A DNA stretch of 33,452 nucleotides from Thioalkalivibrio sp. (GTDB taxonomy: Bacteria > Pseudomonadota > Gammaproteobacteria > Ectothiorhodospirales > Ectothiorhodospiraceae), in contig SKJG01000135.1 in NCBI GenBank assembly GCA_007116035.1, positions 1 through 33,452 on the forward strand. The letters are read 5' to 3'. Below the pieces are notes generated by a model. That model searched no databases and was not told where the DNA came from. It saw nothing but the letters and a program-made list of their open reading frames with translations. Below, piece after piece: positions 1-22,536 of the stretch (the first letter of the stretch is position 1; every line of letters begins with the position of its first letter). A program made the translations under genes and the position numbers.

Positions 1-689
1 GACTTGCCGGTGGCGCCGATGAACAGCAGGATGCCGGCGGCCGTGGCAACGCCCACGGGGATCAGCCCGCCGGCAAAGGCCTGGTTGATCTGGTCCATCT
101 CCAGCGTGCCCACGGCGGTAAAGATCAGGAACATGCCGAGCAGGAAGCCGGCGTCGCCGACGCGGTTGGTGATGAAGGCCTTGCGCCCGGCGCGGGCCTT
201 GTCGACGTCCTGGAACCAGAAGCCGATCAGCAGGTAGGAGGCGAGCCCCACGCCCTCCCAGCCGACGAACAGCACCAGCAGGGAACGCCCCAGCACCAGC
301 AGCAGCATGAAGAACAGGAACAGGTTCAGGTAGGCGAAGTAACGCGCATAGCTCTCGTCGCCCTTCATGTAGCCGATCGAGTAGATGTGGATCAGCGCAC
401 CGACCCCGGTGACGATCAGCGCCATCACGGCGCTCAGGCGGTCGAGGTAGAAGGACACCTCGAAGACATGTTCGCCGACCAGCGCCCAGGTGAAGACGGT
501 CTCGATCAGCGGCTCACCGCCCCCGGCCTCGAGGATCCGCCAGGCCCAGACGGCCACGCCGAAGGCGGCCAGCGGCAGGCCCACGCCGACGACATTCACG
601 AAGACCGGCCCCACACGGCGGCCGAGCAGCCCGTTTACGAGAAAGCCGGCGAGCGGCAGCAGGACGAGCAGCGTCAGGAGTCCGTTCAT
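1..689 (-). CDS. nuoL: NADH-quinone oxidoreductase subunit L (N-terminal part)
   Basis: This is the first ~229 codons of NuoL, an antiporter-like proton-pumping membrane subunit of complex I. The gene runs off the left edge of the window, so its C-terminal half is not visible. The reverse strand reads MNGLLTLLVLLPLAGFLVNG, then several hydrophobic helices. The family-typical stretches YSIGYM and FVGWEGVGLASYLLIGFW follow, then KARAGRKAFITNRVGD. The Glu in GWEGVG is the conserved TM5 glutamate of the proton channel. The ATG at 689 lies 6 nt after the nuoK stop codon. nuoM and nuoN are expected further left, which is inference from the usual operon order. Confidence 0.96.
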   Translation of the reverse strand, partial: MNGLLTLLVLLPLAGFLVNGLLGRRVGPVFVNVVGVGLPLAAFGVAVWAWRILEAGGGEPLIETVFTWALVGEHVFEVSFYLDRLSAVMALIVTGVGALIHIYSIGYMKGDESYARYFAYLNLFLFFMLLLVLGRSLLVLFVGWEGVGLASYLLIGFWFQDVDKARAGRKAFITNRVGDAGFLLGMFLIFTAVGTLEMDQINQAFAGGLIPVGVATAAGILLFIGATGK

Positions 690-695
690 CGCCCG

Positions 696-1004
696 TTACC
701 CCTTCAGGCCGGCGTAGGCGCCGGGATCCAGCGTGCGCCCGGTGCGCACCAGCAGAAGCAGGATCGGCACGGCAATCGCAATCTCCGCTGCCGCGACCAC
801 GAAGACCAGAAACACCAGCACCGCGCCGGCCTCCGCCCCGAGCAATTGGGTGAAGACCACGAGGCTGAGGATCACGCCGTTGAGCATCAATTCCAGGAAC
901 ATCAGCATCACCAGCAGGTTGCGCCGGACGATGACGCCGACCAGCCCGAGGGCGAACAACATGCCTGAGAGCGCCAGCAGAAAGGTGGTGTCATCCACGG
1001 TCAT
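696..1004 (-). CDS. nuoK: NADH-quinone oxidoreductase subunit K
   Basis: NuoK is a small three-helix membrane subunit of complex I, here 102 aa, close to the usual ~100. It carries the conserved LGLVGVIVRRNLLVMLMFLE stretch and a VVAAAEIAIAVPILLLL helix, including the two membrane glutamates important for proton transfer (in MFLELM and AAAEIA). Its start lies inside the end of nuoJ (14 nt overlap), which suggests translational coupling. A GGGGGA ribosome binding site is almost adjacent to the ATG at 1004. A GTG two codons downstream (998) has better spacing and would give 100 aa, so the exact start is uncertain. Confidence 0.95.
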   Translation of the reverse strand: MTVDDTTFLLALSGMLFALGLVGVIVRRNLLVMLMFLELMLNGVILSLVVFTQLLGAEAGAVLVFLVFVVAAAEIAIAVPILLLLVRTGRTLDPGAYAGLKG

Positions 1005-1539
1005 TCCCCCTTTCGGCCTGGGCCGCCGCGACGTCCTGCCCCCGACGGCGGATATCGATCACCGCGCTGGCCGCGATTTCCGCCACCAGGAGCAGCACCG
1101 CGGTCAGCGCGAAGTACACCCAGAACTGCTCCATGAAGACGATGGCGAAGGTACCGACACTGAAGGCATCCGGCGGCACGTCCACGGCCGGGAACGGCTG
1201 GCCGCGCAGCAGGCCGTCGATCAGCACCCCCAGGAGCAGCAGCAGACCCGCCAGACCGGCCACCAGCAGCGGCGAGAAGCGCTCGGTGAACGAGCGGTCG
1301 CGCACGTCCAGCAGCATGATGGCGTAGATCATGAACACCATCACCGCGCCGACGTAGATCAGGACCTGAAAGACCGCGATCACGTGCATGCCGAGCTGGG
1401 CGTAGATTGCGGCCAGCGAGACCATGGTGCCGATCAGGGCCAGCGCCACGCGCATCGGGTGGCGCAGAAAGAACATGGCCACCGCGCCGGTCAGCGCACC
1501 CAGCGCGAAGACCATCAGGAAGACCGTCTCGATGGTCAC
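991..1539 (-). CDS. nuoJ: NADH-quinone oxidoreductase subunit J
   Basis: NuoJ is a membrane subunit of complex I with about five helices; this reading gives 182 aa. The N-terminus reads (V)TIETVFLMVFALGALTGAVA, followed by HPMRVALALIGTMV and a QVLIYVGAVMVFMIYAIMLL helix, the family signature region near the pi-bulge helix. The reading frame stays open further upstream, but I chose the GTG at 1539. A strong AAGGAGGG ribosome binding site sits 6 nt before it, and the GTG overlaps the nuoI stop in a GTGA. Typical lengths (about 165-200 aa) agree with this start. Confidence 0.94.
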   Translation of the reverse strand: MTIETVFLMVFALGALTGAVAMFFLRHPMRVALALIGTMVSLAAIYAQLGMHVIAVFQVLIYVGAVMVFMIYAIMLLDVRDRSFTERFSPLLVAGLAGLLLLLGVLIDGLLRGQPFPAVDVPPDAFSVGTFAIVFMEQFWVYFALTAVLLLVAEIAASAVIDIRRRGQDVAAAQAERGNDRG

Positions 1540-2102
1540 TTCGGACCCTCCTTCGGCGGGTAGGGCTTGGCCGGATCGCGGGCCGGCTGCCAAGTCAGCA
1601 GTTCTTCACGCCCCAACCACATACCGTGATCGCGGTCGGGCACCGGAAGCCCGGGAACCTGACGAACCATGCGGATCGCGTCCTCGGGGCAGACCTCCAC
1701 GCAGAAGCCGCAGAAGATGCAGCGCGAGTAGTCGATCTCGAAGCGCTTGGGATATTTCGGATGCGCCGGGTCGTCGGGGTCGAAGCCGGCCTCGATCTCG
1801 ATCACCCGGGCCGGGCACACGGTCGCGCAGAGGTTGCAGGCGATGCACTGCGGCCGTCCGTCGGGACGCTGGGTCAGCACGTGCTTGCCGCGGTTGTGCG
1901 CGGCGTAGTCCGCCCGGGTCTCCTCGGGATAGTAGGCGGTCAGCGCGCCCTTGCCCCCGGTGATCCAGCGCTTCATGTTGCGCAGGAAGACGCCGCCGGT
2001 GATCGAGAACCCGCGCAGCACCTCGAACAGGTAAAAGCGTTCCCACCAGCCGAGGGTTGGTTCGTTCCAGTACTTGCGGCGCCGATCGATGACCTTCTTC
2101 AT
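1536..2102 (-). CDS. nuoI: NADH-quinone oxidoreductase subunit I (8Fe ferredoxin-like)
   Basis: NuoI carries clusters N6a and N6b, which pass electrons from NuoG to NuoB in the hydrophilic arm. The 188 aa protein has two CxxCxxCxxxCP motifs: Cys86, 89, 92, 96 (CIACNLCATVCP) and Cys128, 131, 134, 138 (CIFCGFCVEVCP). All eight ligands are present. The start is the ATG at 2102, which overlaps the nuoH stop as ATGA. The C-terminus ends in a Pro/Lys-rich tail that overlaps nuoJ by 4 nt. The N-terminal FSITGGVFLRNMKRWITG region is the amphipathic segment that docks on the membrane arm in this family. Confidence 0.97.
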   Translation of the reverse strand: MKKVIDRRRKYWNEPTLGWWERFYLFEVLRGFSITGGVFLRNMKRWITGGKGALTAYYPEETRADYAAHNRGKHVLTQRPDGRPQCIACNLCATVCPARVIEIEAGFDPDDPAHPKYPKRFEIDYSRCIFCGFCVEVCPEDAIRMVRQVPGLPVPDRDHGMWLGREELLTWQPARDPAKPYPPKEGPK

Positions 2103-3256
2103 GCGCCGGCTGCCTGGATCGCCCACACCGCAACGGCGGTGATGGCCAGGTTGATCAAGGCCAGCGGGAGCAGGAAGCGCCAGGCGAAGCTGAGCAGCTG
2201 ATCGTAGCGAAAACGCGGCAGAGACCAGCGCACGAGAATCAGGAAGCCGCACATCAGGAAGACCTTCACCCAGAACACGGTGATCTGCAGCAGCACCACC
2301 AGCACGTGTGGCAGCGCGATCTCGAAGCCGCCAGGCAGCAGGAAGCCGGCGTCGGTCATGTACGGCAGGTTGTAGCCGCCCAGGAACAGCGTGGTGAACA
2401 GCGCCGCGATGATCGCGATGTGGATGAACTCCGCGAACATGAACAGGCCCATCTTCATCGCGCTGTATTCGGTGAAGTAGCCGGCAATCAATTCCGATTC
2501 CGCCTCGGGCAGGTCGAAGGGAATGCGCTGGTTCTCGGCCTGGGCCGCCACCAGGAACAGGATCGCAGCGAAGGGCTGCAGGAAGATGCCCCAGGCCGGG
2601 ATGAAGCCGAACAGGACGCCGGACTGCTGCTCGACGATGCTGACCAGATTGACCGTCCCGTAGATCAGGATCAGGCCCACGACGGTCAGGCCGATCACCA
2701 GTTCGTAGGAGATCATCTGCGAGCCCGCGCGCACCGCGCCAAGCAGCGAAAACTTGTTGTTGGACGACCAGCCGGCCAGCATCGCGCCGATCACCGCGAT
2801 GCCGCCGAGCGCGAACACGATCAGCAGGCCCGCGTCCAGCGGCGCCACCTGCATCGCGTAACTCCGGTCCCCGAACCATTCCGACGTTCCCTCGAACCAG
2901 CCGAAGAACGTGCCCGGCACCAGCTCGCCGCCGAAGGGGATCACCGCGAAGACCGCCATCACCGGTACGAAGGCAAACCAGGGCGCGACCGCGTAGGCCA
3001 TGCGATCGTAGGAGTTCGGCCGCCAGTCCTCCTTCAGCAGCATCTTCAAGCCATCGGCAAGACCGTGGAACAGTCCCCACCAGATCAGTTTCACTTGGGT
3101 GAAGGGGATGCGCAGGTAGGCACGGTTGGCGCCGATACGGTCGGACATGATCGCCGCCTGCTTGCGCTCGACCCAGGTCAGCACCAGCCCGACGGTCATC
3201 AGCATCAGCACGGCATAGACGATGAAGACACCGTGCACGACCAGATCCTGGATCAC
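2099..3256 (-). CDS. nuoH: NADH-quinone oxidoreductase subunit H
   Basis: NuoH is the membrane subunit at the junction of the two arms and forms much of the quinone chamber. Family motifs are clear: ERKQAAIMSDRIGANRA (about residues 30-46), GWSSNNKFSLLGAVRAGSQMISYE, and the acidic quinone-site loop FDLPEAESELIAGYFTEYS. The protein has 385 aa, versus about 325 in E. coli. Much of the excess is a stretch around residues 108-136 (PFGGELVPGTFFGWFEGTSE and onward) before the APLDAGLL helix. The start codon is a GTG at 3256 that overlaps the nuoG stop (GTGA). Confidence 0.96.
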   Translation of the reverse strand: MIQDLVVHGVFIVYAVLMLMTVGLVLTWVERKQAAIMSDRIGANRAYLRIPFTQVKLIWWGLFHGLADGLKMLLKEDWRPNSYDRMAYAVAPWFAFVPVMAVFAVIPFGGELVPGTFFGWFEGTSEWFGDRSYAMQVAPLDAGLLIVFALGGIAVIGAMLAGWSSNNKFSLLGAVRAGSQMISYELVIGLTVVGLILIYGTVNLVSIVEQQSGVLFGFIPAWGIFLQPFAAILFLVAAQAENQRIPFDLPEAESELIAGYFTEYSAMKMGLFMFAEFIHIAIIAALFTTLFLGGYNLPYMTDAGFLLPGGFEIALPHVLVVLLQITVFWVKVFLMCGFLILVRWSLPRFRYDQLLSFAWRFLLPLALINLAITAVAVWAIQAAGA

Positions 3257-4698
3257 GCGGCACCCCCGCCCGATGCCGACCCGCCCGGTGCAGAGAGCAG
3301 GGGAAACAGTGTCTCGGCGTCGATCACACCGTCCCGGCGGGGCTGGCAGGGTTCAAACGCGCTGACCACCCCTTCGAAGTTGGTGTAATGACCGCGCCGC
3401 TCGGTCTGGATGCTGATGGGGATGAAGACGTCGGCGTGGCCGTTCTCCGGCAGCAGCCAGGAACCCAGGAACAGGATCTTCGCGCCACGTGGCAGGGTCC
3501 CGAAATCGGTCCCCTCACCCCAGACCAGGATCAGGTCGGTGTCTTCCGGAATCTGGACGACGCCCGCCCCCAGCAGATCCTGGCCGGCCCGGGTATTCGG
3601 ATTCTTGTCGGCCCGGATCAGCAGATCGTCCTCCACCACTTCTCCCTCCAGGGGCAGGTGGTCGGGCTTCACAAAGCTGGTGAAATAGTCACCGAGCGAG
3701 TTGCGGAAGGCCCGCAGCTCCTCGTTCGAGCCCCAGCTCGAGACCAGCGCCACGCGCTTGCCCGCCTGGTCGAGCAGGCCCCGAGCGGCCTCGATCGCCT
3801 GCATCAGGGAGACCGTCTCCCCCTTTTGCAGCGCCTGCGTGGCCCTTGGGCGGTCGAGCAGTTCCGGGAGGTCGCGGCCCTTGTTGCAAATCCACGGCCC
3901 ATTGACGCGGGGGTTTTCCAGCGGCGTGACGCGATGGATACGGGTATTGTGCCGTTCGTCCAGCCCCTTGACACGCCACTCCGCCTTGCGGTGCCAGAGT
4001 TGTACCGTGCAGCCGCGGGCGCAGCCCGGACATACCGAGGGTGTCGGCTCCAGGTACCAGACCCGGGACTGATACAGGAACGAGCGCGACAGCAGCGCGC
4101 CGACCGGGCAGATGTCGACGACGTTGTCGGAATAGGGATCGTCGTCCAGCGTGCGCCCCTCGGCCGGCCGCACCAGCATGCTGTCGCCGCGGTGTTCCAG
4201 CCCGAGTACGTTGGATTTCGAGATCTCGCGGGTGAAGCGCACGCAGCGCGAACAGAGGATGCAGCGCTCGTTGTCGAGGAGGATCCGCTCCGACAGCGGG
4301 AAGAACTTGGTCGAAGGCAGTTTCGGATCGCCCGAGATGGCCGGCTCGCCGTTGTACTCATAGTGATAGTCCTGCAGCGCGCACTCGCCCGCCTTGTCGC
4401 AGATGCCGCAGTCCACCGGGTGGTTCAACAGGATGAACTGCAGCATTGCCTTGCGCTGTGCCCGCACCGGGTCGGAATCGGTGAGAACGCGCATGCCGTC
4501 GCTGATCGGCATGTTGCAGGCAATGCCGACCCCGCGGCCCTCCTGCTCGACCACGCAGACCCGGCAGTTGCCGACGATCGACAACGCCGGGTGCCAGCAG
4601 AAATGGGGGATGTAGAACCCGTTCGCCAGCGCGGCCTGAAGCACGGTCGTGTGCTCCCCCGTCTCGACCGGCTGCCCGTTGATGAAGATCGCGGTCAT
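3253..4698 (-). CDS. nuoG: NADH-quinone oxidoreductase subunit G, short form
   Basis: NuoG is the largest hydrophilic subunit of complex I and relays electrons from NuoF to NuoI. The cluster ligands are all visible: N1b (Cys34, 45, 48, 61), N5 (His93, Cys97, 100, 106), N4 (Cys146, 149, 152, 197), and a fourth N7-like set CPGCARGC (Cys223, 226, 230) with Cys271. The protein has only 481 aa, against roughly 670-910 in most bacteria. After residue 290 a ~190-residue remnant replaces the large molybdopterin-oxidoreductase-like domain, yet it keeps the family's C-terminal HADVFIPISIQTERRGHYTN / FEGVVSAFEP element. The ATG at 4698 overlaps the nuoF stop (ATGA) and the nuoH GTG overlaps its own stop, so a frameshift or lost tail is not evident. 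Confidence 0.95.
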   Translation of the reverse strand: MTAIFINGQPVETGEHTTVLQAALANGFYIPHFCWHPALSIVGNCRVCVVEQEGRGVGIACNMPISDGMRVLTDSDPVRAQRKAMLQFILLNHPVDCGICDKAGECALQDYHYEYNGEPAISGDPKLPSTKFFPLSERILLDNERCILCSRCVRFTREISKSNVLGLEHRGDSMLVRPAEGRTLDDDPYSDNVVDICPVGALLSRSFLYQSRVWYLEPTPSVCPGCARGCTVQLWHRKAEWRVKGLDERHNTRIHRVTPLENPRVNGPWICNKGRDLPELLDRPRATQALQKGETVSLMQAIEAARGLLDQAGKRVALVSSWGSNEELRAFRNSLGDYFTSFVKPDHLPLEGEVVEDDLLIRADKNPNTRAGQDLLGAGVVQIPEDTDLILVWGEGTDFGTLPRGAKILFLGSWLLPENGHADVFIPISIQTERRGHYTNFEGVVSAFEPCQPRRDGVIDAETLFPLLSAPGGSASGGGAA

Positions 4699-6002
4699 TC
4701 CAGGTTCCCCGCGAACTTGGAGCGCTTGTGCTCGATGAAGTAGTCGAACTCCTCGCGGAAGTTGTCTAGCATCGCGGTGGCCGCGTAGCCCGCCGCATCC
4801 CCGAGGCCGCAGATGGTCGTGCCGTCGTTGAAGCCGGCGATGTAATTCAAGCGCTCGAGATCCTCGGGCCGCCCGTCGCCAGCGACGATGCGGTCGATGA
4901 TCCGATGCATCCAGCCGGTGCCCTCCCGGCAGGGCGTGCACTGGCCGCAGGACTCGTGATGGTAGAAGCGGAGCATGATCTGCAGGAGCCGGACCATGCA
5001 GGTGCCCTCGGCGATCACGATCATCCCACCCGAGCCCAGCGACGAACCGGCCGAGCGCAGCTTCTCGTGATCCAGTGTCAGACCCTCCACTTCGCCCGCG
5101 GTCAGGACCTTGGCGTCCTTTCCGGTCAGCACCTGTGAAGAGATTCCGCCGGGGATCACCGCCTTCAGGGGCCGTCCGCCCAGCACGCCACCGCAGTCCT
5201 CATGCAGGAACCTCGCCCAGGAGTACCCCAGTTCCACCTCGTAGACGCCGGGACGCGCAATGTGCCCGGAGATCGAGATCAGCCGGGTCCCCGGGCTCTT
5301 TTCGGTGCCGACCTCCCGGAAGGCACTCGCGCCGTTGCGGATGATCCAGGCGATGGTCGCCAGGGTCTCGACGTTGTTCACCACGGTCGGCGCCTGGTGG
5401 AGGCCGCGAACGGTCATGCGCGGAGGCCGGTTGCGCGGAAAGGCCCGCGTGCCCTCGATGGAACCGAGCAACGAGGAGGCCTCGCCGCAGACGTAGGCCC
5501 CGGCACCGCGAAACACGAAGAGATCGCAGGAAAAATCGCTGCCCAGGATGTTCTCGCCGAAGTAGCCCGCGGCATAGGCCTCCTCCACCGCGGCATCCAG
5601 ACGCCGCCAGGGCAGGTCGTATTCACCACGGATGTACACGAAGCAGTGCCGCACACCCAGCGCGTAGCAGCTGAGGAGCATGGACTCAAGCAGCGTGTGC
5701 GGAGTGTACTCGAGCACCCAGCGGTCCTTGAAGGTGCCGGGTTCGCCTTCATCGGCGTTGGCGATCAGGTAATGCGGCTGGCCGTCGTCGGGATCGATCC
5801 CCTGCCACTTGCGCCCAGCCGGGAAGGCCGCCCCGCCCCGCCCCTGCAGGCCCGAATCGACGATCTCCTGGGTCACCTCCCGGGGCTTCATGGTACGCAA
5901 GACCTTTTCCAGCGCCTCGTACCCACCGCGCGCACGGTAGTCGTCCAGCGAGTGCGAGGTCGGCGTGACCTCGAAGTCCATCAATACCTTGCGCCCGGTC
6001 AT
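4695..6002 (-). CDS. nuoF: NADH-quinone oxidoreductase subunit F (FMN and NADH site)
   Basis: NuoF binds NADH and FMN and carries cluster N3, at the tip of the hydrophilic arm. The 435 aa protein shows GRGGAAFPAGRKW (FMN loop, residues 54-66), NADEGEPGTFKDR (82-94, with the Glu equivalent to E. coli Glu95), and the N3 ligands ESCGQCTPCREGTGW (Cys352, 355, 358) plus Cys398. The nucleotide-site motif reads CGEASSLLGSIEG (172-184), whereas the usual form is CGEETALxxSLEG. The second Glu, Glu183 in E. coli, is therefore Ala175. The FMN loop is also AAF rather than AGF. The gene follows nuoE after one base and overlaps nuoG by 4 nt. The subunit identity is secure; the cofactor preference is open. 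Confidence 0.97.
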   Translation of the reverse strand: MTGRKVLMDFEVTPTSHSLDDYRARGGYEALEKVLRTMKPREVTQEIVDSGLQGRGGAAFPAGRKWQGIDPDDGQPHYLIANADEGEPGTFKDRWVLEYTPHTLLESMLLSCYALGVRHCFVYIRGEYDLPWRRLDAAVEEAYAAGYFGENILGSDFSCDLFVFRGAGAYVCGEASSLLGSIEGTRAFPRNRPPRMTVRGLHQAPTVVNNVETLATIAWIIRNGASAFREVGTEKSPGTRLISISGHIARPGVYEVELGYSWARFLHEDCGGVLGGRPLKAVIPGGISSQVLTGKDAKVLTAGEVEGLTLDHEKLRSAGSSLGSGGMIVIAEGTCMVRLLQIMLRFYHHESCGQCTPCREGTGWMHRIIDRIVAGDGRPEDLERLNYIAGFNDGTTICGLGDAAGYAATAMLDNFREEFDYFIEHKRSKFAGNLE

Positions 6003-6003
6003 C

Positions 6004-6468
6004 TCAGTCCAGCCTCTCGAGCAGGGCGTCCAGATCCGCGGCGCTCAGGTTTTCGTGGTAGGCCTCGTTCACCATCACCACCGGTGCGGTGCCGCAGGAT
6101 CCCAGGCACTCCACAGTGGACAGGGTGAAGCGGCCGTCCGGGGTGGTCTCGCCCGGCTGCACGCCCAGTTTCCCGATGAGCTGATCGATCAGGCGCTCGG
6201 CGCCGCGCATCGAGCAGGACACGTTACGGCAAACCTGGAGGTGCCAGCGCCCGATCGGCTTGCGCCGCAGCATGCCGTAGAACGACAGGGCCTCCTCGAT
6301 CTGGATGCGCGGAATACCCAGGTACTCGACCAGCCCGTCGATGTCGCTGTTGTCGATGAAACCGCGATCCTCCTGGATGCGGCGCAGGCAGGGGACCAGC
6401 AGCGTCGCATCGTGACCCGGCGGCAGCCGGGTCTTCAGGCGCTCGAATTCAGGGATCAGGTGCTTCAC
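6004..6468 (-). CDS. nuoE: NADH-quinone oxidoreductase subunit E (thioredoxin-like 2Fe-2S)
   Basis: NuoE is the small peripheral subunit carrying 2Fe-2S cluster N1a next to NuoF. The 154 aa protein has the expected ligands Cys80, Cys85, Cys121 and Cys125 (VCRNVSC ... VECLGSCGTAPV). An N-terminal helical domain comes first (LVPCLRRIQEDRGFIDNSDI, then IPRIQIEEALSFYGM). I chose the GTG at 6468 because it overlaps the nuoD stop in a GTGA and gives the standard family length. Reading further upstream would run through nuoD in another frame. Confidence 0.95.
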   Translation of the reverse strand: MKHLIPEFERLKTRLPPGHDATLLVPCLRRIQEDRGFIDNSDIDGLVEYLGIPRIQIEEALSFYGMLRRKPIGRWHLQVCRNVSCSMRGAERLIDQLIGKLGVQPGETTPDGRFTLSTVECLGSCGTAPVVMVNEAYHENLSAADLDALLERLD

Positions 6469-7697
6469 CGATCGCACTCCCCACCGATCATGTTCACGGT
6501 GCCGAAGGTGGATACGATGTCCGCGAGCTGGTAACCCTCCAGCAACCGGTGCAGCCCGCCCATGTGCACGAAGCTGGGTGCGCGCACGTGCACCCGGTGC
6601 GGTGTTCCGCTGCCATCGCTGACCAGGAAGAAACCCAGTTCGCCGTTGGCCGCCTCGTGGGCGCGGTAGACCTCGCCAGCGGGCACCTGGGGCCCGTCGA
6701 TCACCAGTTTGAAGTGGTTGATCAGCGATTCGATCTCGGAGTAGACGAGATCCTTCTCGGGGAAGGTGCAACGCCGGTCGTCGACGTTGACGGGGCCGTC
6801 GGGAAGCATTTCGATCAGTTGCCGGATCATGTACACCGACTCGTCCATCTCGCGCATGCGCACGAAGTACCGGTCGTAGTTGTCGCCCTTGATACCAACC
6901 GGCACCTCGAAGTCGAGCTCGTCGTAGGCGAGGTACGGCGTGTCCTTGCGCAGGTCGCGCGGCACGCCGGTGGAACGCAGGATCGGTCCGGTGAAGCCCC
7001 AGTGGATGGCCTCCTCGGTCGTCAGCACCCCGACGTCCCGCGTCCGGTCGATGAAGATGCGGTTGCGATCGAGCAGCCCGTGAATCCGACCGACGTAGAC
7101 CTCGTACTCGTCGAGGATCTCTTCCAGACGCTTGATCCAGCCCTCGGGAAGGTCGTTTGCCAGCCCGCCGATGCGCCCATAGCTGTAGGTGACGCGCGCC
7201 CCGGTCAGATCGGCAAGGTGCTCGTAGATGTAGTCGCGGATGGTCATCAGGTAGAGGAAGGCGGTCATCGCCCCCATCTCCATCACCGAGGCCGCGATGC
7301 AGGTGATGTGGTCGGCAATGCGCGAATATTCGGCGAGCAAAGTGCGCAGGTAGCGGGTGCGCGGCGTGATCTCCACCCCCATCAGGGTCTCGACCGCATC
7401 GCAGTAGGCGAAGTTGTTCATCAGGGCCGAGCAATAGTTCAGCCGGTCGACGAAGGGGATCAGCGTGTGCCAGGTGTGGGCCTCGCACTCCTTCTCGAAG
7501 CCGCGGTGCAGGTAGCCGCAGTGGACGTCGGCGCGCACCACCCGCTCGCCGCTGAGTTCGGCGATGATCTGCAGCGTGCCGTGGGTCGCCGGGTGCGACG
7601 GCCCGATGCTGACGATCACCCCATCCTCGGTGGAGGGGCGATCGAAGGCCGGGCGCACGGGGTTCGGCAGCGTCTGCTCTTCGTCCCGCATCGTCAT
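6465..7697 (-). CDS. nuoD: NADH-quinone oxidoreductase subunit D (49 kDa type)
   Basis: NuoD forms the quinone-binding pocket together with NuoB and descends from the large subunit of NiFe hydrogenases. The 410 aa protein has IGPSHPATHGTLQI near the N-terminus, whose His is the quinone-site histidine, then HCGYLHRGFEKECE. Later come YSYGRIGG, GVPRDLRKDTPYLAYDELDF, and the C-terminal FGTVNMIGGECDR. NuoC and NuoD are separate proteins here, not fused as in E. coli. The 157 bp gap to nuoC, unusually wide for this operon, contains a palindromic repeat. Confidence 0.97.
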   Translation of the reverse strand: MTMRDEEQTLPNPVRPAFDRPSTEDGVIVSIGPSHPATHGTLQIIAELSGERVVRADVHCGYLHRGFEKECEAHTWHTLIPFVDRLNYCSALMNNFAYCDAVETLMGVEITPRTRYLRTLLAEYSRIADHITCIAASVMEMGAMTAFLYLMTIRDYIYEHLADLTGARVTYSYGRIGGLANDLPEGWIKRLEEILDEYEVYVGRIHGLLDRNRIFIDRTRDVGVLTTEEAIHWGFTGPILRSTGVPRDLRKDTPYLAYDELDFEVPVGIKGDNYDRYFVRMREMDESVYMIRQLIEMLPDGPVNVDDRRCTFPEKDLVYSEIESLINHFKLVIDGPQVPAGEVYRAHEAANGELGFFLVSDGSGTPHRVHVRAPSFVHMGGLHRLLEGYQLADIVSTFGTVNMIGGECDR

Positions 7698-7854: not shown

Positions 7855-8328
7855 TCATTCGCGGTACCTGACCAGGGGCTGTTCACGCTCCTTGGGGTAA
7901 TCCTTGCGCAGCGGGTGACCTTCGAAGCCCTCGTAGAGAAGGATGGGACGCAGATCCGCGTTGCCGCGGAACACAATGCCGAACATGTCGTGGCACTCGC
8001 GCTCCATGAAGTGCGCGGAGCCATAGTGGTCCAGCAGCGAATCCACGACCGGGTCGGCCATGGTGACCGTCGTTTTCAGACGTACCCGCACGTGATCGCG
8101 CGTGGAGTAGAAGTGATAGACCACGTCGAAGCGGGGCTCGCGCTGCGGCCAATCGATGGCGGTGACGTCCAGAAACAGGTCGAACCCGAACGCGTCCTTC
8201 AGCAGCTTCACGGTATCGAGCAGCGCCTCGCGCGGCAGCTGCACCACGAGCAGACCGTGCGCGAAGACGGGCTCGCGGCCGTCTCCGTCAAGCCGTTCCC
8301 GCAATCGTTCGAGCAGACCCTGGTCCAT
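7855..8328 (-). CDS. nuoC: NADH-quinone oxidoreductase subunit C (30 kDa type)
   Basis: NuoC is a structural subunit of the complex I connecting fragment and binds NuoD. The 157 aa protein contains LFLDVTAIDWPQREPRFDVV, then YHFYSTRDHVRVRLKT, and the family signature ERECHDMFGIVFRGNADLRP. It ends with GHPLRKDYPKE. The ATG at 8328 comes 2 nt after the nuoB stop. The C-terminus is short, as in stand-alone NuoC proteins. Confidence 0.96.
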   Translation of the reverse strand: MDQGLLERLRERLDGDGREPVFAHGLLVVQLPREALLDTVKLLKDAFGFDLFLDVTAIDWPQREPRFDVVYHFYSTRDHVRVRLKTTVTMADPVVDSLLDHYGSAHFMERECHDMFGIVFRGNADLRPILLYEGFEGHPLRKDYPKEREQPLVRYRE

Positions 8329-8330: not shown

Positions 8331-8825
8331 TCAGAACTTCTCGTTGATGATGGGGTGGCTGGCGTTGGCGATCTTGTCCTGCAACTGCATGATCCCATCG
8401 ATCACCGACTCGGGACGGGGCGGGCAGCCGGGGATGTAGACGTCCACCGGGATGATCTTGTCGATGCCCTGCAGCGCCGCGTAGTTTTGGTAGAACCCGC
8501 CGCTGGTCGCGCAGACACCGAAGGCCATCACCCATTTCGGTTCGCACATCTGCTCGTAGACCTTCTTCAGGATCGGCGCCTGTTTGTGCGTGATCGTGCC
8601 GACCACCATCAGCAAGTCCGACTGGCGCGGGGAAAAACGCGGCAGCGCGGCACCGAAGCGGTCAGTGTCGTACATCGTCGAACTCACCGACATGAATTCC
8701 ATCGCGCAACAGGCGGTGACGAACGGGTAGGGGAAGATCGAGAACTTGCGTGCCCATCCGACCAGATCGTCCTTCCGGGTGGTCAGGTACTCGAAAGCAC
8801 TCGATTTTTCGTGGACCTGGTTCAT
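8331..8825 (-). CDS. nuoB: NADH-quinone oxidoreductase subunit B (cluster N2)
   Basis: NuoB carries the terminal iron-sulfur cluster N2 that reduces quinone. The 164 aa protein has the four N2 ligands: the tandem Cys39-Cys40 (VTACCAMEFM), Cys105 (AFGVCATSGGF) and Cys134 (YIPGCPPRPE). The residue before Cys105 is Val in GVCATSGG, a mild departure from the common GACANSGG. It lies 2 nt upstream of nuoC. It is separated from nuoA by 139 bp that hold a palindromic repeat. Confidence 0.97.
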   Translation of the reverse strand: MNQVHEKSSAFEYLTTRKDDLVGWARKFSIFPYPFVTACCAMEFMSVSSTMYDTDRFGAALPRFSPRQSDLLMVVGTITHKQAPILKKVYEQMCEPKWVMAFGVCATSGGFYQNYAALQGIDKIIPVDVYIPGCPPRPESVIDGIMQLQDKIANASHPIINEKF

Positions 8826-8964: not shown

Positions 8965-9366
8965 TCATGTGCGAACGTCCTCCAGCAGGCCGGATTTCCA
9001 GACATACAGCACCAGGAGCACCAGCAGCAGCAGGAAGAAGCCGAACACCAGCAGCAGGGTCCCGGTCAGCGGCTGCGCACCCAGGGCCCAGAGGAACAGG
9101 AACACCGTCTCCAGCTCGAACAGGATGAACACCACCGCGATGCCGTAATACTTCACCGGCACGGCCTTGACGTTCATCCGATCGACCGGCTCGGCACCGC
9201 ATTCGAACGGATCGAGCTTCATCGCCGACGCCACGGGCTTCGGCCCCAGCACCCGGTTCATCAGCAGCGTCACCGCCACGAAGCCGAGAATGGCCAGCAG
9301 GTAGAGCAGGAAAATGGCATAAGGATTCACGACGAACGACAGGCCCCCGTTCCTGTGTGTATCCAC
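8965..9366 (-). CDS. nuoA: NADH-quinone oxidoreductase subunit A
   Basis: NuoA is a three-helix membrane subunit next to NuoH and opens the operon. The 133 aa protein has the conserved loop LDPFECGAEPVDRMNVKAVP, including the family's exposed Cys, then KYYGIAVVFILFELETVFLF and a third hydrophobic helix. The start given is a GTG at 9366, with only a weak upstream purine run. A second GTG at VNPYAIFL, 12 codons in, is a real alternative. No gene overlaps upstream, so transcription probably begins in the 9367-9693 gap. Confidence 0.94.
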   Translation of the reverse strand: MDTHRNGGLSFVVNPYAIFLLYLLAILGFVAVTLLMNRVLGPKPVASAMKLDPFECGAEPVDRMNVKAVPVKYYGIAVVFILFELETVFLFLWALGAQPLTGTLLLVFGFFLLLLVLLVLYVWKSGLLEDVRT

Positions 9367-9693: not shown

Positions 9694-11223
9694 TTATCTC
9701 GGATCCAACCCCGCCAGGAACTCCCGAGACTGGCGGGCGATTTCCTCCCGCCGCTCCAGGCTCATGCGGGCCAGCGTGCGATAAGGCATGGCCATCCGCG
9801 GATTACCGGCCAGCCGTCGCTCGTTTTCCATCAGGAAATACCAGTACAGATAGTTGAACGGACAGGCGCCCTCGCCAAGCTTGCTCTTCGGGCTGTACAT
9901 GCAGGGGCCGCAATAATCGGACATCCGGTCGATGTAGGCCCCGGAGGCCGCATAGGGCTTCGAGCCCAGGAGACCCCCGTCGGCGTGCAGGGCCATGCCG
10001 TGGGTGTTCGGCAATTCCACCCACTCGAAGGCGTCGGCATAGACGATCAGATACCAGGCCTCCACCTCCGCCGGTGCAATACCCGCCAGCAACGCGAAGT
10101 TGCCGGTGATCATCAACCGCTGGATGTGATGGGCATAGGCATTCCGCCGTGTGCCCTCGATGGTCTCACGCAGGCAGCGCAGATCGGTCTCGCCCGTCCA
10201 ATAGAAATCCGGTAAAGGCCGGCTCGCCTCGAGAAAATTCGTGGCCGCATAGCCGGGCATTCGAAGCCAGTAGAGGCCGCGCACGTACTCCCGCCAACCG
10301 AGAATCTGGCGTACGAATCCCTCGACTGCCGGCAGCGGCGCTTCGCCCTTGGCATAAGCCGACAGCGCCGCCTCGCACACCTCGCGGGGGCTCAGCAGAC
10401 CGATGTTGATGCACGGCGACAGGAGGGCGTGGAAGAGAAAATCCTCGCCACGCTGCATTGCGTCCTGGTAGTCGCCGAAGCGCGGCAGGGCGACCGCGAT
10501 GAAGTCGGCCAGCGCCCTCAGCGCATCGCTTCGGGTCACCGCCCACCCGAACCGATCCAGTTCTCCGAAATGATCGCCGAAGCGATCCGCGACGAGCGCC
10601 ATCACCTCCCGGGTGATCGCATCCGGCGGGAAACGAAGCCGGGCCGGCGGCGCAACATCGCGAGGGAGCGCCCTGCGGTTCTCCGGGTCGAAGTTCCAGC
10701 GCCCGCCCTCAGGGTCGCCCTCCCGCATCAGCCAGCCCGTCTCGCGGCGCATCTCCCGGTAAAAATACTCCATGCGCAGCGCCTTTCGCCCCTTTGCCCA
10801 TGCCTCGAACCGCCGGTGCGAGCACAGAAAGCGATCGTCTTCGCGAATCTCGATCGGCGTGTCGAAGGCATGGCTCCAGCTCTGCATCCGCTCGAACACC
10901 CGCCACTCCCCCGGCTCCGTCACCACCACCCGGTCAACGGCGTGTCGCAAGAGCGCGCGCCCGAGTTCTCCGGTAAATGAGCCCGTGTTATCGGGGTCGT
11001 CGAGGCGAACGTAGTCGACCGCGACACCCTCGGCCCGCAGGTCGTCGGCAAAATGGCGCATCGCCGACAGTACCAGGGCGATCTTCTGCTGATGATGCCG
11101 TACATAGGTGGCCTCCTCATGGACCTCGACCAGAAGCACGACATCACGCTCGGCATCCAGATCGGCCAGTGCACTCAGCCCCCGGGACAACTGATCACCC
11201 AGCACAAACCGCAGGGTCCTCAT
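9694..11223 (-). CDS. phrB: FeS-type (6-4) photolyase / bacterial cryptochrome, PhrB family
   Basis: This is a DNA photolyase of the iron-sulfur bacterial cryptochrome/photolyase (FeS-BCP) class, which repairs UV (6-4) photoproducts with light. The 509 aa length matches Agrobacterium PhrB (about 507). The four cluster cysteines fall at residues 350 (TDLRC), 438 and 441 (YCGPC) and 454 (GACPFN), the same numbers as in PhrB. The N-terminus ([10 protein letters not shown]) is the antenna-binding Rossmann domain. The C-terminal half holds the FAD-binding helical domain, including [11 protein letters not shown] and [18 protein letters not shown]. The ATG overlaps the stop of the upstream DUF2256 gene. 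Known members bind FAD and a ribityllumazine antenna; activity here is inferred. Confidence 0.95.
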
Positions 11224-12521: not shown

Positions 12522-13301
12522 TCAGACGCGCCCAGCGCGCAGGATGCCGCGCGAGCTGTCCTGGATGAACGCAAGCAGATTGCGAACCTCGGGCACCTCG
12601 GTCTCGGCCAGCAGACTGGCGACGCGGGACTTGCGGTCACTCCGCCCGCGCAGCACCTCCGCGAAGGCCCGGTGCAGGCCGTTGATGCTGGCCTCACTGA
12701 ACCCCTTGCGGCGCAGCCCCACCTTGTTGATTCCGATCAACCGGGCGTAGTTGCCGCTGGCGAGGCAGTAGGGAGGCAGATCGCGGTTCAGGGCCGACCC
12801 CATGCTGGTGAAGGCGTAGGAGCCGACACGGCAGAATTGGTGGACCAGCGTGAAGCCGCCCAGGGTGCAATGATCCTGCACCTCCACATGGCCGGCCAGG
12901 GAAGCCGCGTTCGAGAAGATGATCCCGTTGCCGATGATGCAGTCATGGGCGATATGGACGTAGGCCATGATCAGGTTGTCGTGACCGATCGAGGTCTCGC
13001 CGCGACCACGTTCCGTGCCCCGGTTCAGGGTCACCGACTCACGAATGACGTTGCGGTCTCCAATCACCAGGCGCGTGGGTTCGCCGCGATAGCTGGTGTC
13101 CTGCGGGGCCTCGCCGATCGAAGCGAATTGATAGATGCGATTGTCCTGCCCGATCTCCGTGGGACCCTGAATCACCACGTGGGGACCGACCCAGGTCCCG
13201 GCACCGATGCGCACGTGTGCTCCGATCACGGAGAACGGCCCAACCTGCGCCGAGGGGTCGATCTCTGCGCTGGGATGGATATCGGCGCGCGGGTCGATCA
13301 T
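12522..13301 (-). CDS. lpxA: Acyl-ACP--UDP-N-acetylglucosamine O-acyltransferase
   Basis: LpxA performs the first step of lipid A synthesis, adding a 3-hydroxyacyl chain from ACP to UDP-GlcNAc. The 259 aa protein shows the left-handed beta-helix hexapeptide repeats from residue 2 (IDPRADIHPSAEIDPSAQVG). The catalytic His is His119 in YVHIAHDCIIGN (His125 in E. coli). The chain-length ruler position equivalent to E. coli Gly173 is Met167 (FTSMGSALNRDLPPY), as in Pseudomonas LpxA, which favours 10-carbon chains. The ATG at 13301 shares its last base of context with the fabZ stop (TGATG), so the two are coupled. lpxB does not follow. Confidence 0.97.
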   Translation of the reverse strand: MIDPRADIHPSAEIDPSAQVGPFSVIGAHVRIGAGTWVGPHVVIQGPTEIGQDNRIYQFASIGEAPQDTSYRGEPTRLVIGDRNVIRESVTLNRGTERGRGETSIGHDNLIMAYVHIAHDCIIGNGIIFSNAASLAGHVEVQDHCTLGGFTLVHQFCRVGSYAFTSMGSALNRDLPPYCLASGNYARLIGINKVGLRRKGFSEASINGLHRAFAEVLRGRSDRKSRVASLLAETEVPEVRNLLAFIQDSSRGILRAGRV

Positions 13302-13756
13302 CACTCGATTTCCTTGCCCACGCACATCAGATCGGCGGAGGCACAGAGATCGTCACCCACGTGAGCCTCGGCAGAAAACTTCCAGATGCCCCGCACCGTC
13401 CGGATATGCTCGACGCGAAGCCGCAGCTGATCGCCCGGTTCCACCTGGCGCCGGAAGCGCGCCTGATCGATGCCGACGAAGAGATACAGCTGCTTCTTGT
13501 CCTGATTGACCCCCTGATGTTCCTCGGTCTTGAAGGCCAGGAGCCCGGTGGCCTGCGCCAGGGCCTCGAGGATCAGGACCCCCGGCATCACCGGCTTGAC
13601 CGGAAAATGGCCTTGGAAGTAGGGCTCATTGATGCTGACGTTCTTCAGCGCGACGAGGTATTTTCCCGGCTCGTAGTCCGTGACCCGGTCGATGAGGAGG
13701 AAGGGGTATCGATGCGGCAGATAGCGCATCACCTCGAGTATGCTCAGACCGTCCAT
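13301..13756 (-). CDS. fabZ: 3-hydroxyacyl-ACP dehydratase FabZ
   Basis: FabZ dehydrates 3-hydroxyacyl-ACP in fatty acid elongation and competes with LpxA for the same substrate. The 151 aa protein has the hot-dog fold signature [13 protein letters not shown], the catalytic His50 in [10 protein letters not shown] and Glu64 in [13 protein letters not shown]. The frame is open further upstream, but I chose the ATG at 13756 because [20 protein letters not shown] is the family N-terminus and an AAGGTAG site precedes it. It is separated from skp by 369 bp and has no lpxD in front, unlike the usual order. Confidence 0.96.
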
Positions 13757-13994
13757 ATGGCCACTACCTTTTTCTTGTTGTTTGCATTTCGGCATCGCGC
13801 AGACCGCATGGCCGACGAAGACCCCTGGTTGTGTTCCAACCCCGGACACCACGACGCGCCAGCCGCCAGGCTGAGTTCAAGGCGCGCGCCGGTTGTGCGT
13901 AGCGCCTGAAGCAAATCGGCCGGGTTCCTGGCTCGACCACACCCCCCCATGTCATCGCGCCCAAGGCCATTTCACCAGCGACTGAACAGGCTTG

Positions 13995-14000
13995 AGTATA
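13995..14000 (-). promoter_or_regulatory. Candidate -10 box for fabZ-lpxA
   Basis: The minus strand reads GAGTCGTTATACTCAAGC. TATACT differs from the TATAAT consensus at one base. No good -35 hexamer sits 16-18 nt upstream, so the call is weak. A start here would give an untranslated leader of about 230 nt before fabZ. Confidence 0.3.
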
Positions 14001-14092
14001 ACGACTCCCCCGCCGATTGCGCAGTGCCTGCCGATGCGCGGCAGGCGAAGGCCTCTCGCCCCGAGGAAGTTCCGCAGCATTCGCCGGCAGAT

Positions 14093-14112
14093 CCGGAGTT
14101 CGTTTCCTCCGG
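14093..14112 (-). terminator. Hairpin after skp, possible terminator without a U-tract
   Basis: CCGGAG pairs with CTCCGG across an 8 nt loop, beginning about 14 nt after the skp stop. No T-run follows on the minus strand, so intrinsic termination is doubtful. It may instead protect the 3' end of the mRNA. Confidence 0.3.
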
Positions 14113-14125
14113 CAAAGACCCTGCC

Positions 14126-14638
14126 TCAGCGAAGGCCCTGCATGGCGGCAATGATGTCATCCGTGATGTCGATGCGATCGCTCGCATACAGCACGTTGCG
14201 CTCCGTCAGGATCAGGTCGATTTCCCGGTCCCGGGCCAGCGCGATGATGGCATCATTGATCAGGCGCTGGAGCTTGGCCAGTTCCTCGTTGCGGCGTACG
14301 TTCAGATCCTCTGTGAAGCTCTCCTGGGCCCGGCGGAACTCGCGGGAACGCGCGGTGAACTCCCGCTCCAGATCCGCACGCTGGTTTGCGGTCATCAATT
14401 CGCCTTCCCGTTCGAGCCGATCGCGCAGCTTCTGCAGTTCCTCACGCTCTGCCACCAGCTGGGAATCCCGCGGAGAGAATTCGCGCTCCAGTTCCCGCAT
14501 GGCCTCGGCAGCCTGCGGCGAGTCCTCGAGGATCTTGTTCATGGTCACGAAGGCCACGTTCTGTGCCGACAAAGCGGCTGGCCACAGCAAGGCTCCGAGC
14601 AGCAGGACCCCGAGGATGATAACGATTCTTGTCTTCAT
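14126..14638 (-). CDS. skp: Periplasmic chaperone Skp/OmpH
   Basis: Skp holds unfolded outer-membrane proteins in the periplasm and hands them to the BAM complex. The 170 aa protein starts with a signal peptide (MKTRIVIILGVLLLGALLWP), cleaved near ALSA-QNVAFV. A short strand NVAFVTMNKILEDSPQ follows. Then come long charged coiled-coil helices rich in Glu and Arg (about residues 45-130), and a C-terminal strand region with IDLILTERNVLYAS. I chose the ATG at 14638, next to the signal peptide and an AGAAAGG site. It lies 49 nt after bamA, its functional partner. Confidence 0.93.
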   Translation of the reverse strand: MKTRIVIILGVLLLGALLWPAALSAQNVAFVTMNKILEDSPQAAEAMRELEREFSPRDSQLVAEREELQKLRDRLEREGELMTANQRADLEREFTARSREFRRAQESFTEDLNVRRNEELAKLQRLINDAIIALARDREIDLILTERNVLYASDRIDITDDIIAAMQGLR

Positions 14639-14687
14639 AAACCTTTCTGCGTGTCGGATTGAATTCGTGATCAAAGGCCGCGCGGCA

Positions 14688-16973
14688 TCAGAAGCTCGCC
14701 CCGAGGAGGAACTGCAGGCTCTGCGTGTCGTCTTCGTCCTTCTCGCGCAGAGGAACAGCGTAGCTGAAGCTCAACGGACCCACCGGCGACATCCAGGTCA
14801 GGGCAAGGCCTGCCGACACCCGAATCTCGTCGGCATCGAAATCGCTGAAACTCTCATAGACTTGGCCCGCGTCGACGAAGCTGCTCATGCGCACGGCGCG
14901 GTTATCGGCCGCGAAAGGTAGCGGAAAATACAGTTCCGCCGAGGCAGTGCTCCGGAAGTCGCCACCGAAGGGATCGTTGTTGCTGTCGCGCGGACCGAGG
15001 CTGTTGTCCTCGAATCCGCGTACCGACCGGATACCACCCGCGAAGAAGTGCTCGAAGAACGGAAGTTCGCCGGTGCTGCCGTAACCGTCACCATAGCCGA
15101 GCCCGGCCGACAGGCTCAGGGAATAGGTGTCGGACAGCTTGAAGATCTCCTGGCCGCTGTAGGTGACCTGGTAGTACTCGAGATCGCTCCCCGGGATCGT
15201 TACCTCCGAACCGATCCGGTGCCGCCGGCCGGACGAGGCGAAGATCACGCGGTCACGGGTATCGTGCGTGTAGGAGACTTCCAAGGAAAAGAGATTGTAT
15301 CGATCGCCCTCGCGATCGATAAAATTGGTGATCTCGTCCGGCGTCGTCGGGACCGTGTTGATCCGGACATTCTGGAACCCCGGCCGGATATTGACGGTGT
15401 CGAATTCAGTGAACGGGATGCCGTAGGTGACATTCGCTCCCGCACGGTCGGACGAGAAACGCGAGACATTGGCCTCCTCCGCATCGATCTTCTGGTAGAA
15501 GATCGAGAAACCCCGGCTGGCTCCGTGGATCGTGTAGTGCGGGTTCAGAACGCTGAGATTGACCAACTGCGAAACCTGGCTGTTACTGACCGACACTGTG
15601 ACCCGATTGCCGGATCCCATGAAGTTGTCCTGGCTGAGGCTTGCCGTCAGCAGGATTCCCTGGTTCTGGGAGTAGCCCGCGCCGAGTGACAGCGCCCCGG
15701 ATAGGCGCTCGGTCACTGAGATTTCGAGATCCACCTCGTCATCACTGCCTGCGACCCGCCGGGTCTCGATGTTCGCGGTCTCCACGAAGGGCAGGCGCTG
15801 CAGCCGCACGCGAGACCGGTCCACCTGTTCGCCGTTGAACCAGGCGCCCTCCATCTGCCGAAGTTCGCGCCGGTACACGCTCTCCTGCGTACGGGTATTG
15901 CCGGTGATGGAGATGCGCCGGACATAGACACGCGGGCCGGGGTCCACGAAGTAGGTCAGCGCCACGGTCCGTGCGTCCTCGTCCACCTCCGGGATCGGGT
16001 TGACGTTGGCGAAGGCAAAGCCATCGAGGGTCAGGCGCCGGGTGATTTCCTCAGCCGAATCGACCACCCGGCGGCGTGAGAAGATCTGCCCCGGTTCCAC
16101 CGCGATCAATTCCTCCAACTCCTGCGCCGGCACGACCATTTCCCCCGCGAGGCCGACCGAGCCGATGATGAAACGGTCGCCCTCGTCGATGTTGATCGTG
16201 ATGTAGATATCCTTGCGGTCCGGCGTCAGGGTCACCTGCGTGGAATCGACATCGAAATTCAGGAAGCCCTCGTCCAGATAGCGTGAGCGCAGACGTTCGA
16301 GGTCGCCGGACAGCTTCTCGCGGGAATAATTGTCGCGCCGGCTCAGAAAAGCCCACCAGCGCGGCACCCCCGATTCGAAGCGGCGTGTCAGCTCACGATT
16401 GTCGAAGCTCTCGTTGCCGACAACGTTCACCTCGCGAATCTTCGCCACACGGCCCTCGGCGATGGTGATGTCCACATCCACCCGGTTGCGCGGCAACTCG
16501 GTAATCTCGATGTCGATCTGCACGTTGTAGCGGCCACGGGCCAGGTATTGCTGACGCAACTCGTTTTCAACCCGATCCAGGATGGTCCGGTTGAACACGC
16601 GCCCGCGCTGGAGACCGACCGTCCGCAGGGCATCCGTCAGCCCTTCCGAGGGGATGTCGCGGTTACCGGTGAAACGGATTTCGTTGATCGCCGGGCGTTC
16701 CTCCACGATCACGACCAGAATGTTCCCCCGCCGCGCCAACTGCACGTCGGAAAAGAAGCCGGTCTGAAACAGCGCACGGATCACTTCGCCGCTGCGACCG
16801 TCATCAAAGGTATCTCCGACCTGAACCGGCAGGTAGGTCAGCGTGGTGCCCGCGGTGATGCGCTCGAGTCCCTCGATCTCGATGTCATCGATCACGTAGG
16901 ACTGCGCCCATAGCCCTCCCGAGGCCAGCAGCAGTCCGTACAGCATCAATGCCTGCAAGAGAGATCGAGTCAT
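14688..16973 (-). CDS. bamA: Outer membrane protein assembly factor BamA
   Basis: BamA is the central channel of the machinery that inserts beta-barrel proteins into the outer membrane. The 761 aa protein begins with a signal peptide (MTRSLLQALMLYGLLLASGG, cleaved after LWAQ). Five POTRA domains follow, opening with YVIDDIEIEGLERI. The C-terminal 16-strand barrel includes GGIRSVRGFEDNSLGPRD, whose VRGF is the Omp85 family signature, and the chain ends in the aromatic outer-membrane signal LLGASF. I chose the ATG at 16973 because of the signal peptide. An in-frame GTG at 17015 overlaps the rseP stop but would add 14 polar residues ahead of it. Confidence 0.96.
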   Translation of the reverse strand: MTRSLLQALMLYGLLLASGGLWAQSYVIDDIEIEGLERITAGTTLTYLPVQVGDTFDDGRSGEVIRALFQTGFFSDVQLARRGNILVVIVEERPAINEIRFTGNRDIPSEGLTDALRTVGLQRGRVFNRTILDRVENELRQQYLARGRYNVQIDIEITELPRNRVDVDITIAEGRVAKIREVNVVGNESFDNRELTRRFESGVPRWWAFLSRRDNYSREKLSGDLERLRSRYLDEGFLNFDVDSTQVTLTPDRKDIYITINIDEGDRFIIGSVGLAGEMVVPAQELEELIAVEPGQIFSRRRVVDSAEEITRRLTLDGFAFANVNPIPEVDEDARTVALTYFVDPGPRVYVRRISITGNTRTQESVYRRELRQMEGAWFNGEQVDRSRVRLQRLPFVETANIETRRVAGSDDEVDLEISVTERLSGALSLGAGYSQNQGILLTASLSQDNFMGSGNRVTVSVSNSQVSQLVNLSVLNPHYTIHGASRGFSIFYQKIDAEEANVSRFSSDRAGANVTYGIPFTEFDTVNIRPGFQNVRINTVPTTPDEITNFIDREGDRYNLFSLEVSYTHDTRDRVIFASSGRRHRIGSEVTIPGSDLEYYQVTYSGQEIFKLSDTYSLSLSAGLGYGDGYGSTGELPFFEHFFAGGIRSVRGFEDNSLGPRDSNNDPFGGDFRSTASAELYFPLPFAADNRAVRMSSFVDAGQVYESFSDFDADEIRVSAGLALTWMSPVGPLSFSYAVPLREKDEDDTQSLQFLLGASF

Positions 16974-17011
16974 GTCTGTCGCCAAATCGATGGGCTGCGA
17001 ACGCTGCCTGG

Positions 17012-18373: not shown

Positions 18374-18388
18374 GAAGTCATGGTGTCG

Positions 18389-19585: not shown

Positions 19586-19586
19586 G

Positions 19587-21159: not shown

Positions 21160-21173
21160 CGGGACAACAGAGG

Positions 21174-22462: not shown

Positions 22463-22496
22463 GGGACTCCTCGGTAAGGAATGGACTCGTACCTGC

Positions 22497-22528: not shown

Positions 22529-22536
22529 ATTCGGGC

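Follow-up and report, generated by a model that had tools for sequence, protein, structure and literature searches.

Complex I is taken to be an NADH enzyme. The locus described here, a nuo operon of Thioalkalivibrio whose NuoF carries Ala and Arg at two places where an NADH-type site has Glu and an aromatic residue, raises the question of which nucleotide such an enzyme would use. The window, by which we mean the whole stretch of 33,452 nucleotides that was analysed, is a complete contig from the draft genome G000 (3.03 Mb), and its minus strand holds nuoA, B, C, D, E, F, G, H, I, J and K followed by a nuoL that the contig end cuts off after 229 codons. The genes, together with the nuoF codons discussed below, are as follows.

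8965..9366, minus strand: nuoA
8331..8825, minus strand: nuoB
7855..8328, minus strand: nuoC, 157 aa, named from its place and by reading
6465..7697, minus strand: nuoD
6004..6468, minus strand: nuoE, 154 aa, with Cys80, 85, 121 and 125
4695..6002, minus strand: nuoF (P0001) of the variant complex I, 435 aa, the FMN, nucleotide and N3-cluster subunit
5826..5828, minus strand: codon of NuoF Ala59, part of the FMN loop (GRGGAAF) and without diagnostic value
5811..5813, minus strand: codon of NuoF Arg64, equivalent to E. coli Leu71 and adjoining the FMN-loop Lys
5478..5480, minus strand: codon of NuoF Ala175, GCC, aligned with E. coli NuoF Glu183 and Thermus Nqo1 Glu185
5427..5429, minus strand: codon of NuoF Arg192, equivalent to E. 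coli Lys200 and Thermus Lys202
5418..5420, minus strand: codon of NuoF Arg195, equivalent to E. coli Phe203 and Thermus Phe205
3253..4698, minus strand: nuoG, 481 aa, short, with Fe-S domains and without a PF00384 match
2099..3256, minus strand: nuoH
1536..2102, minus strand: nuoI, 188 aa, named from its place and by reading
991..1539, minus strand: nuoJ, named from its place and by reading
696..1004, minus strand: nuoK
1..689, minus strand: nuoL, partial (first 229 codons, up to the contig end); the order L, M, N is the same in sister genomes

The reading frame of nuoF is intact, and its product scores over the cut-off for both PF01512 and PF10589. Both NuoF copies of the genome reach the cut-off of NF010120 (NuoF), and the NCBIfam nuoF equivalog TIGR01959 is missed by the window protein (493.6 bits vs a cut-off of 558.65) and passed by the canonical one (651.3 bits). 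The nucleotide-site motif of the window NuoF is GAGAYVCGEASSLL. A sequence-only reading of this DNA had seen Ala in place of a Glu at codon 5478..5480 and equated that Glu with E. coli Glu183, and both points were borne out: GCC on the minus strand encodes Ala175, and alignment with E. coli K-12 NuoF (sequence from NC_000913) puts it at the second Glu of CGEE (the Thermus Nqo1 number was counted within the alignment). That reading argued from single residues; its Ala holds, but it overlooked the partner change F203->R. The loss is fixed across a clade.

The rest of the operon is that of an ordinary complex I in most respects. The four N3-cluster cysteines of NuoF are present (Cys352, 355, 358 and 398), and the cysteines listed above for NuoE are the usual ligands of cluster N1a. 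In the sister genome G013 the variant operon runs from nuoA to nuoN, and its L, M and N are proton-antiporter-type subunits by domain search; because of these and the cluster cysteines kept in NuoE and NuoF, both the electron path and the pump look complete. A scan of L153 together with 29 clade loci (out of 49), 30 sequences in all, showed nuoA-N complete and in fixed order in 26; three of the other four are cut by a sequence end, and the fourth, L077 of Thiorhodospira sibirica, has nuoE and nuoF only. That variant pair (L077:9117-11824) has no other nuo gene within 10 kb and is followed by a ferritin-like gene (PF00210); it has the Ala/Arg pocket too and is, so to speak, a diaphorase detached from complex I. 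A PF00384 match is present in the canonical NuoG of G013 and absent from the short NuoG of the window, and the nuoG-nuoH spacing elsewhere in the clade suggests a short NuoG there too. Next to nuoA lies a cryptochrome/photolyase-like ORF of 509 aa (9694-11223, named from its translation), and farther on (12522-25206) the order lpxA, fabZ, skp, bamA, rseP, dxr, cdsA, uppS, frr, pyrH, tsf, rpsB, map is found, likewise named from ORF translations. A conserved neighbour gene of the variant operon was sought, and no ORF family recurred in more than 4 of 25 loci.

A search of the same genome with PF01512 gave three matches: the variant NuoF, a protein read from its sequence as RnfC (L001) and a canonical NuoF (L002) with CGEETAL...KPPF, i.e. 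the Glu/Phe pair. Judged by its genes, the nuo operon of the window is a second complex I next to a canonical one, and it therefore need not replace NADH oxidation. Across 47 genomes of the family, a copy like the window NuoF (at least 73% identity) was full-length in 10 and a fragment in 1 more, and the other listed matches were mostly 47-51% identical, with three at 37-39%. CGEAS stood in 10/10 full-length variant copies (that of the window counted) and CGEE in all 20 fetched loci of the 47-51% class. Two of the Thioalkalivibrio carriers are single-contig genomes. A lone mutation or an assembly error is ruled out by the copies, 98-73% identical, in 9 other family genomes and by Ala in 49/49 clade loci. 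Ten window subunits compared with those of the canonical operon of G013 (L154) were only 31-52% identical, and the variant is therefore an old, divergent enzyme and not a recent copy.

To describe the nucleotide site, 53 unique clade sequences were set against 110 canonical NuoF. The latter were chosen as having Glu175, and none of the loci behind them was shown without it, so that their 110/110 Glu is no result; the Phe at residue 195 in 109 of them (Tyr in 1) is. Sixteen near-fixed differences separate the two sets. Of these, E175A, F195R, K192R, L64R (adjoining the FMN-loop Lys) and G59A lie in or close to the nucleotide site, with A175, R195, R192 and R64 in 53/53 clade sequences. In Thermus structures the equivalent of Arg195, Phe205, is an adenine-stacking residue. 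A conserved acid nearby that takes over the role of the lost Glu, which the sequence-only reading had itself named as speaking against its idea, was looked for: none of the 16 near-fixed differences gains an acidic residue, and as far as the alignment goes such a substitute is ruled out. The FMN loop fared differently. It does read GRGGAAF, as had been described, but is unlinked to the loss of Glu: 29 of 31 more distant loci (L083-L113), which were picked for this very loop by the AFPAGRKW pattern, have both Glu175 and the same loop, and in 37 of the 49 clade loci (L045-L076, L078-L082) it is GHGGAAF, with His for the Arg of GRGG. We rejected it as evidence for a change of nucleotide; from the alignments, the telling partner change is F203->R and not the FMN loop. 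An AlphaFold2 model of the window NuoF (mean pLDDT 84.7) matches NuoF, HydB and NfnB chains in fold. The nucleotide loop is weak in it (blocks 171-200 at pLDDT 56-61, residues 191-194 under 50), and we therefore make no claim on pocket geometry.

Could this pocket have stopped serving a pyridine nucleotide altogether, with NuoEF taking electrons from another donor and the site left to drift? The isolated nuoEF pair of T. sibirica beside its ferritin-like gene indicates that the pair can serve elsewhere. However, the pocket residues are invariant in 53/53 sequences from Gammaproteobacteria, Burkholderiales and Gemmatimonadota, the FMN-loop Gly and Lys and the Glu pair of NADEGEPG are kept, as are the cluster cysteines in the window, and drift would not fix Arg195. 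We consider this the least probable of the readings.

The two positions were then followed through 318 unique NuoF-family sequences, gathered by similarity searches (queries P0001, L101 and L294; family PF01512) and not drawn at random. The residues at 175/195 were E/F in 217, E/Y in 38, A/R in 55, S/R in 5, G/R in 2 and A/H in 1: all 255 sequences with Glu have Phe or Tyr at 195, and all 63 without it have Arg or His. Since the sequences are related and were gathered by similarity, the raw Fisher value for this pair is not a probability. On two trees built without the motif columns (65 and 76 rows) each position changes at least six times, and in the supported independent pairs both change together, 5/5 on the first tree and 4/4 on the second; a sign test on these is non-significant, as 5 and 4 pairs, all agreeing, cannot reach 0.05. 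L253 (frame at 2645) is remote, at 31% identity; the 65-row tree and the count of 318 include it, and the 76-row tree omits it, as it does near-identical sequences and those shorter than 300 residues. The variant clade (SH-aLRT 100) sits on a long stem of 0.64 changes per column inside the canonical NuoF branch that includes E. coli. A Glu/Arg pair was found neither among the 318 nor among later sequences. One sequence outside the 318, L360, has Glu with Leu (CGEESAM...RPPLV); with Leu279 of the formate dehydrogenase subunit FdsB, it means that Glu is not always paired with an aromatic residue. Gly, Ser or Ala for Glu with Arg or His at the partner position was also seen in NuoF/HydB-type diaphorases of Chloroflexi MAGs (L095, L101) and in L292, L294, L295, L305, L310, L314 and L315 from the phylum sample. 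These are perhaps further NADP(H) enzymes of independent origin, to judge from the same two residues.

An experimental anchor for these positions comes from Rhodobacter capsulatus FdsB, whose residues 259, 276 and 279 we equated by spacing with NuoF 175, 192 and 195. The passages of Kumar and Leimkuhler 2023 (PMC10671435) that concern the site state that Glu259 bonds the 2'-hydroxyl of NADH, and that E259G/Q/R/K and L279R have activity with NADP+, and wild type and E259D none. The same passages cite Morina 2011 for a raised NADPH affinity of E. coli complex I after Glu -> Gln/His (PMC10671435). The FdsB variants as given there are poor, with KM in the mM range and none better with NADP+ than with NAD+ (E259G 112 vs 184, E259Q 79 vs 452 per min per mM), and the effects do not add up in double variants (PMC10671435); two residues therefore need not give good NADPH use. 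From these passages and the family counts we drew our own definition of an NADP(H)-type site, a small neutral residue at E. coli position 183 with a basic one at 203. The window NuoF has exactly this combination (A175/R195), and the Glu and aromatic residue of an NADH-type site are replaced by Ala and Arg in 53/53 clade sequences.

The same mutants lend something to a reading in which NAD(H) is still used and the Glu was lost to weaken binding on purpose, giving a low-affinity site suited to reverse flow or one open to both nucleotides. The five E259 changes of Table 1 raise the KM for NAD+ from 0.12 to 2.75-7.48 mM, and E259R, K and G are described as using both nucleotides to a similar, low degree (PMC10671435). 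In the part of Spero 2016 that bears on this, moreover, some complex I clades are proposed to be tuned for NADH synthesis (PMC4859585). A weakened NADH site, however, needs no invariant Arg195, and Arg or His at this position goes with the absence of Glu in 63/63 sequences and with its presence in 0/255, which makes this reading unlikely in our view. It is still less credible that we are looking at an ordinary NADH enzyme in which a shifted geometry has made the Glu dispensable, through lineage drift of no functional meaning. The long stem and several fixed differences, some of them maybe neutral, would fit such drift, but other family branches show the same pair of changes, and both changed places are among those whose mutation altered nucleotide choice in FdsB, as far as the passages cited above go. 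We regard it as highly improbable. Use of NADP(H), in an otherwise ordinary complex I (nuoA-N being complete in sister genomes), is what we hold to be likely for the window NuoF. The earlier suggestion that the enzyme may accept NADPH stands in so far as the right residue is lost, the loss is clade-fixed, no acid substitutes for it and Arg occupies the partner position; it has to be amended in that a canonical complex I is also present and that the telling partner is F203->R.

The distribution of the clade was examined by a scan of 84,980 species, each represented by a single genome, for which eight aligned clade members served as query. The scan starts from two short patterns, and members differing there escape it. 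It kept 80 loci of 112 relatives, and 49 of these (L034-L082, 60-98% identity) are the clade, with CGEAS and RPPR (Ala175, Arg195) in 49/49. They belong to Thioalkalivibrio (including a MAG, L034, with a NuoF 98% identical to that of the window), other Gammaproteobacteria MAGs, Thiorhodospira sibirica, Burkholderiales/Betaproteobacteria (Rubrivivax, Rhizobacter, Aquabacterium and others) and Gemmatimonadota. The record of L050 is titled Candidatus Kuenenia stuttgartiensis; its NuoF motif matches the Gemmatimonadota ones and its genome (G063) surfaced in the phylum sample around a Gemmatimonadaceae genome, and the title seems to be mistaken. In Pseudomonadota sampled evenly, with at least 90% completeness requested, matches in the other 396 genomes went no higher than 52% identity and were no better than 2.7e-128, and an even sample of Gemmatimonadota gave variant matches at E <= 1e-150 in 14/298. 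Forty-eight clade genomes searched with PF01512 had two to six matches apiece, RnfC and other relatives included.

The lifestyles of the carriers bear on the proposal of the sequence-only reading that NADPH-linked reverse flow would suit an autotroph. Our carrier set has 56 entries, namely 52 carriers (one of which, G038, was counted on a motif-less fragment), 3 non-carriers and one genome entered twice. Reaction-centre genes occur in 20/52 carriers, RuBisCO (E < 1e-100) in 29/52 and either of them in 42/52, and the 10 carriers with neither include two MAGs about 80% complete and one with a RuBisCO fragment. Against this, RuBisCO was found in 3/3 non-carriers tested from the genus Thioalkalivibrio, and the transhydrogenase subunit PntB in 38/38 genomes tested from its family, so that NADPH is obtainable otherwise. 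Relatives manage without the variant, and its tie to autotrophy is loose. In Gemmatimonadota, 13 of the 18 carriers have a reaction centre and only 1 a strong RuBisCO match, and 17/18 gave no PntB match, a count that covers carriers only. In the sample of 298 genomes of this phylum, reaction-centre genes accompany 11/14 carriers vs 23/284 others (Fisher p 2.4e-9, kinship ignored; the variant and reaction-centre counts come from samples of the same centre and size). The variant clade appears scattered among light- or CO2-using bacteria, with pocket changes such as would be expected of an NADPH enzyme.

How might such an enzyme work? We picture the variant as an anciently diverged second complex I with a NuoF site rebuilt for NADP(H). 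The Glu, which bonds the 2'-hydroxyl of NADH and would repel a 2'-phosphate, is lost, and the 2'-phosphate may fill the space left by Ala175; Arg195, with Arg64 and Arg192 also fixed, replaces the aromatic residue and would be able to pair with this phosphate. Hydride would pass to or from FMN, the usual chain of clusters would carry electrons to quinone, and protons would be moved by the membrane arm. Since the variant retains the FMN loop, the ligands of clusters N3 and N1a and the antiporter-type subunits, it should exchange electrons between NADP(H) and quinone and translocate protons as it does so, and we infer that it is coupled to proton movement. More speculatively, the reaction could be reversed in vivo, so that lithotrophs and phototrophs with a high proton-motive force would make NADPH from quinol. 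In many carriers electrons enter at the level of quinone or cytochrome, and a strong proton-motive force is expected from light or lithotrophy; reverse flow to NADP+ is therefore the direction that we tentatively prefer. The fuller picture is one we advance tentatively, giving it somewhat less than even chances: a natural energy-converting NADPH:quinone oxidoreductase, or NADP-type complex I, whose complete operon has apparently spread to lithotrophs and phototrophs of two phyla or more. In it the proton-motive force would drive quinol electrons straight onto NADP+, bypassing NADH and transhydrogenase, and Gemmatimonadota carriers could owe most of their membrane-driven NADPH supply to it.

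Our literature search, which covered titles and abstract openings with subscription papers mostly outside it, turned up no account of an NADPH-type complex I occurring in nature. If the proposal is true, reverse electron flow could supply NADPH directly, models of how sulfur lithotrophs and Gemmatimonas-type phototrophs obtain biosynthetic reductant would change, and an NADPH-driven proton pump would be at hand for engineering. The comparisons also suggest a simple two-residue reading of nucleotide choice in the NuoF/HydB/FdsB family.

Among known systems, the complex I isozymes of R. sphaeroides (clades A and E) offer a likeness in that one phototroph likewise has two complex I with different roles (PMC4859585); that paper concerns NADH only, and 'nadph' occurs 0 times in its text. 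The FdsB variant E259G/L279R resembles the window enzyme more closely at the site itself, with a small residue and Arg at what are by spacing the same two positions, but belongs to a soluble formate dehydrogenase and not to complex I, and the engineered forms, in the passages cited, stayed poor. The electron-bifurcating hydrogenases supply natural cases. T. kivui HydABC is said to use NADP+ (Katsyv 2023), and we take it to be an NADP+ enzyme and A. woodii HydABC an NAD+ enzyme. The T. kivui HydB (PDB 8a6t) reads CGESTAL...RPPR, that is Ser/Arg at the two positions, and the A. woodii HydB (PDB 7q4v) CGEETAL...RPPF. Against NADP+ use by T. kivui HydABC stands the 2014 genome paper, which assumed NAD+ on grounds of homology (PMC4320612). 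For C. autoethanogenum, two further papers describe a HytB specific for NADP (PMC6085437, PMC6288185). T. kivui HydB is like the window NuoF in the lost Glu and the Arg at the partner position (Ser/Arg vs Ala/Arg) and unlike it in being a subunit of an electron-bifurcating hydrogenase, with Ser and not Ala, 40% identical in the fold alignment. Nearest in kind are the E183 variants of E. coli complex I (Morina et al. 2011, JBC 286:34627), which reportedly changed one position and raised NADPH use, an activity said to have been presented as absent from nature. The acid is lost at the same place in the window NuoF, but here the change is natural, clade-fixed and paired with Arg at 203, so that an enzyme of Thioalkalivibrio and other lithotrophs and phototrophs bears residues like those of the engineered designs. 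With canonical complex I (E. coli NuoF, Thermus Nqo1) the variant shares 14 genes in the usual order, the cluster ligands and the fold; it differs in Glu183->Ala, Phe203->Arg, Lys200->Arg, Leu71->Arg and the short NuoG without a PF00384 match. By family, on the features compared here, it is a complex I, and by its nucleotide site a new variant.
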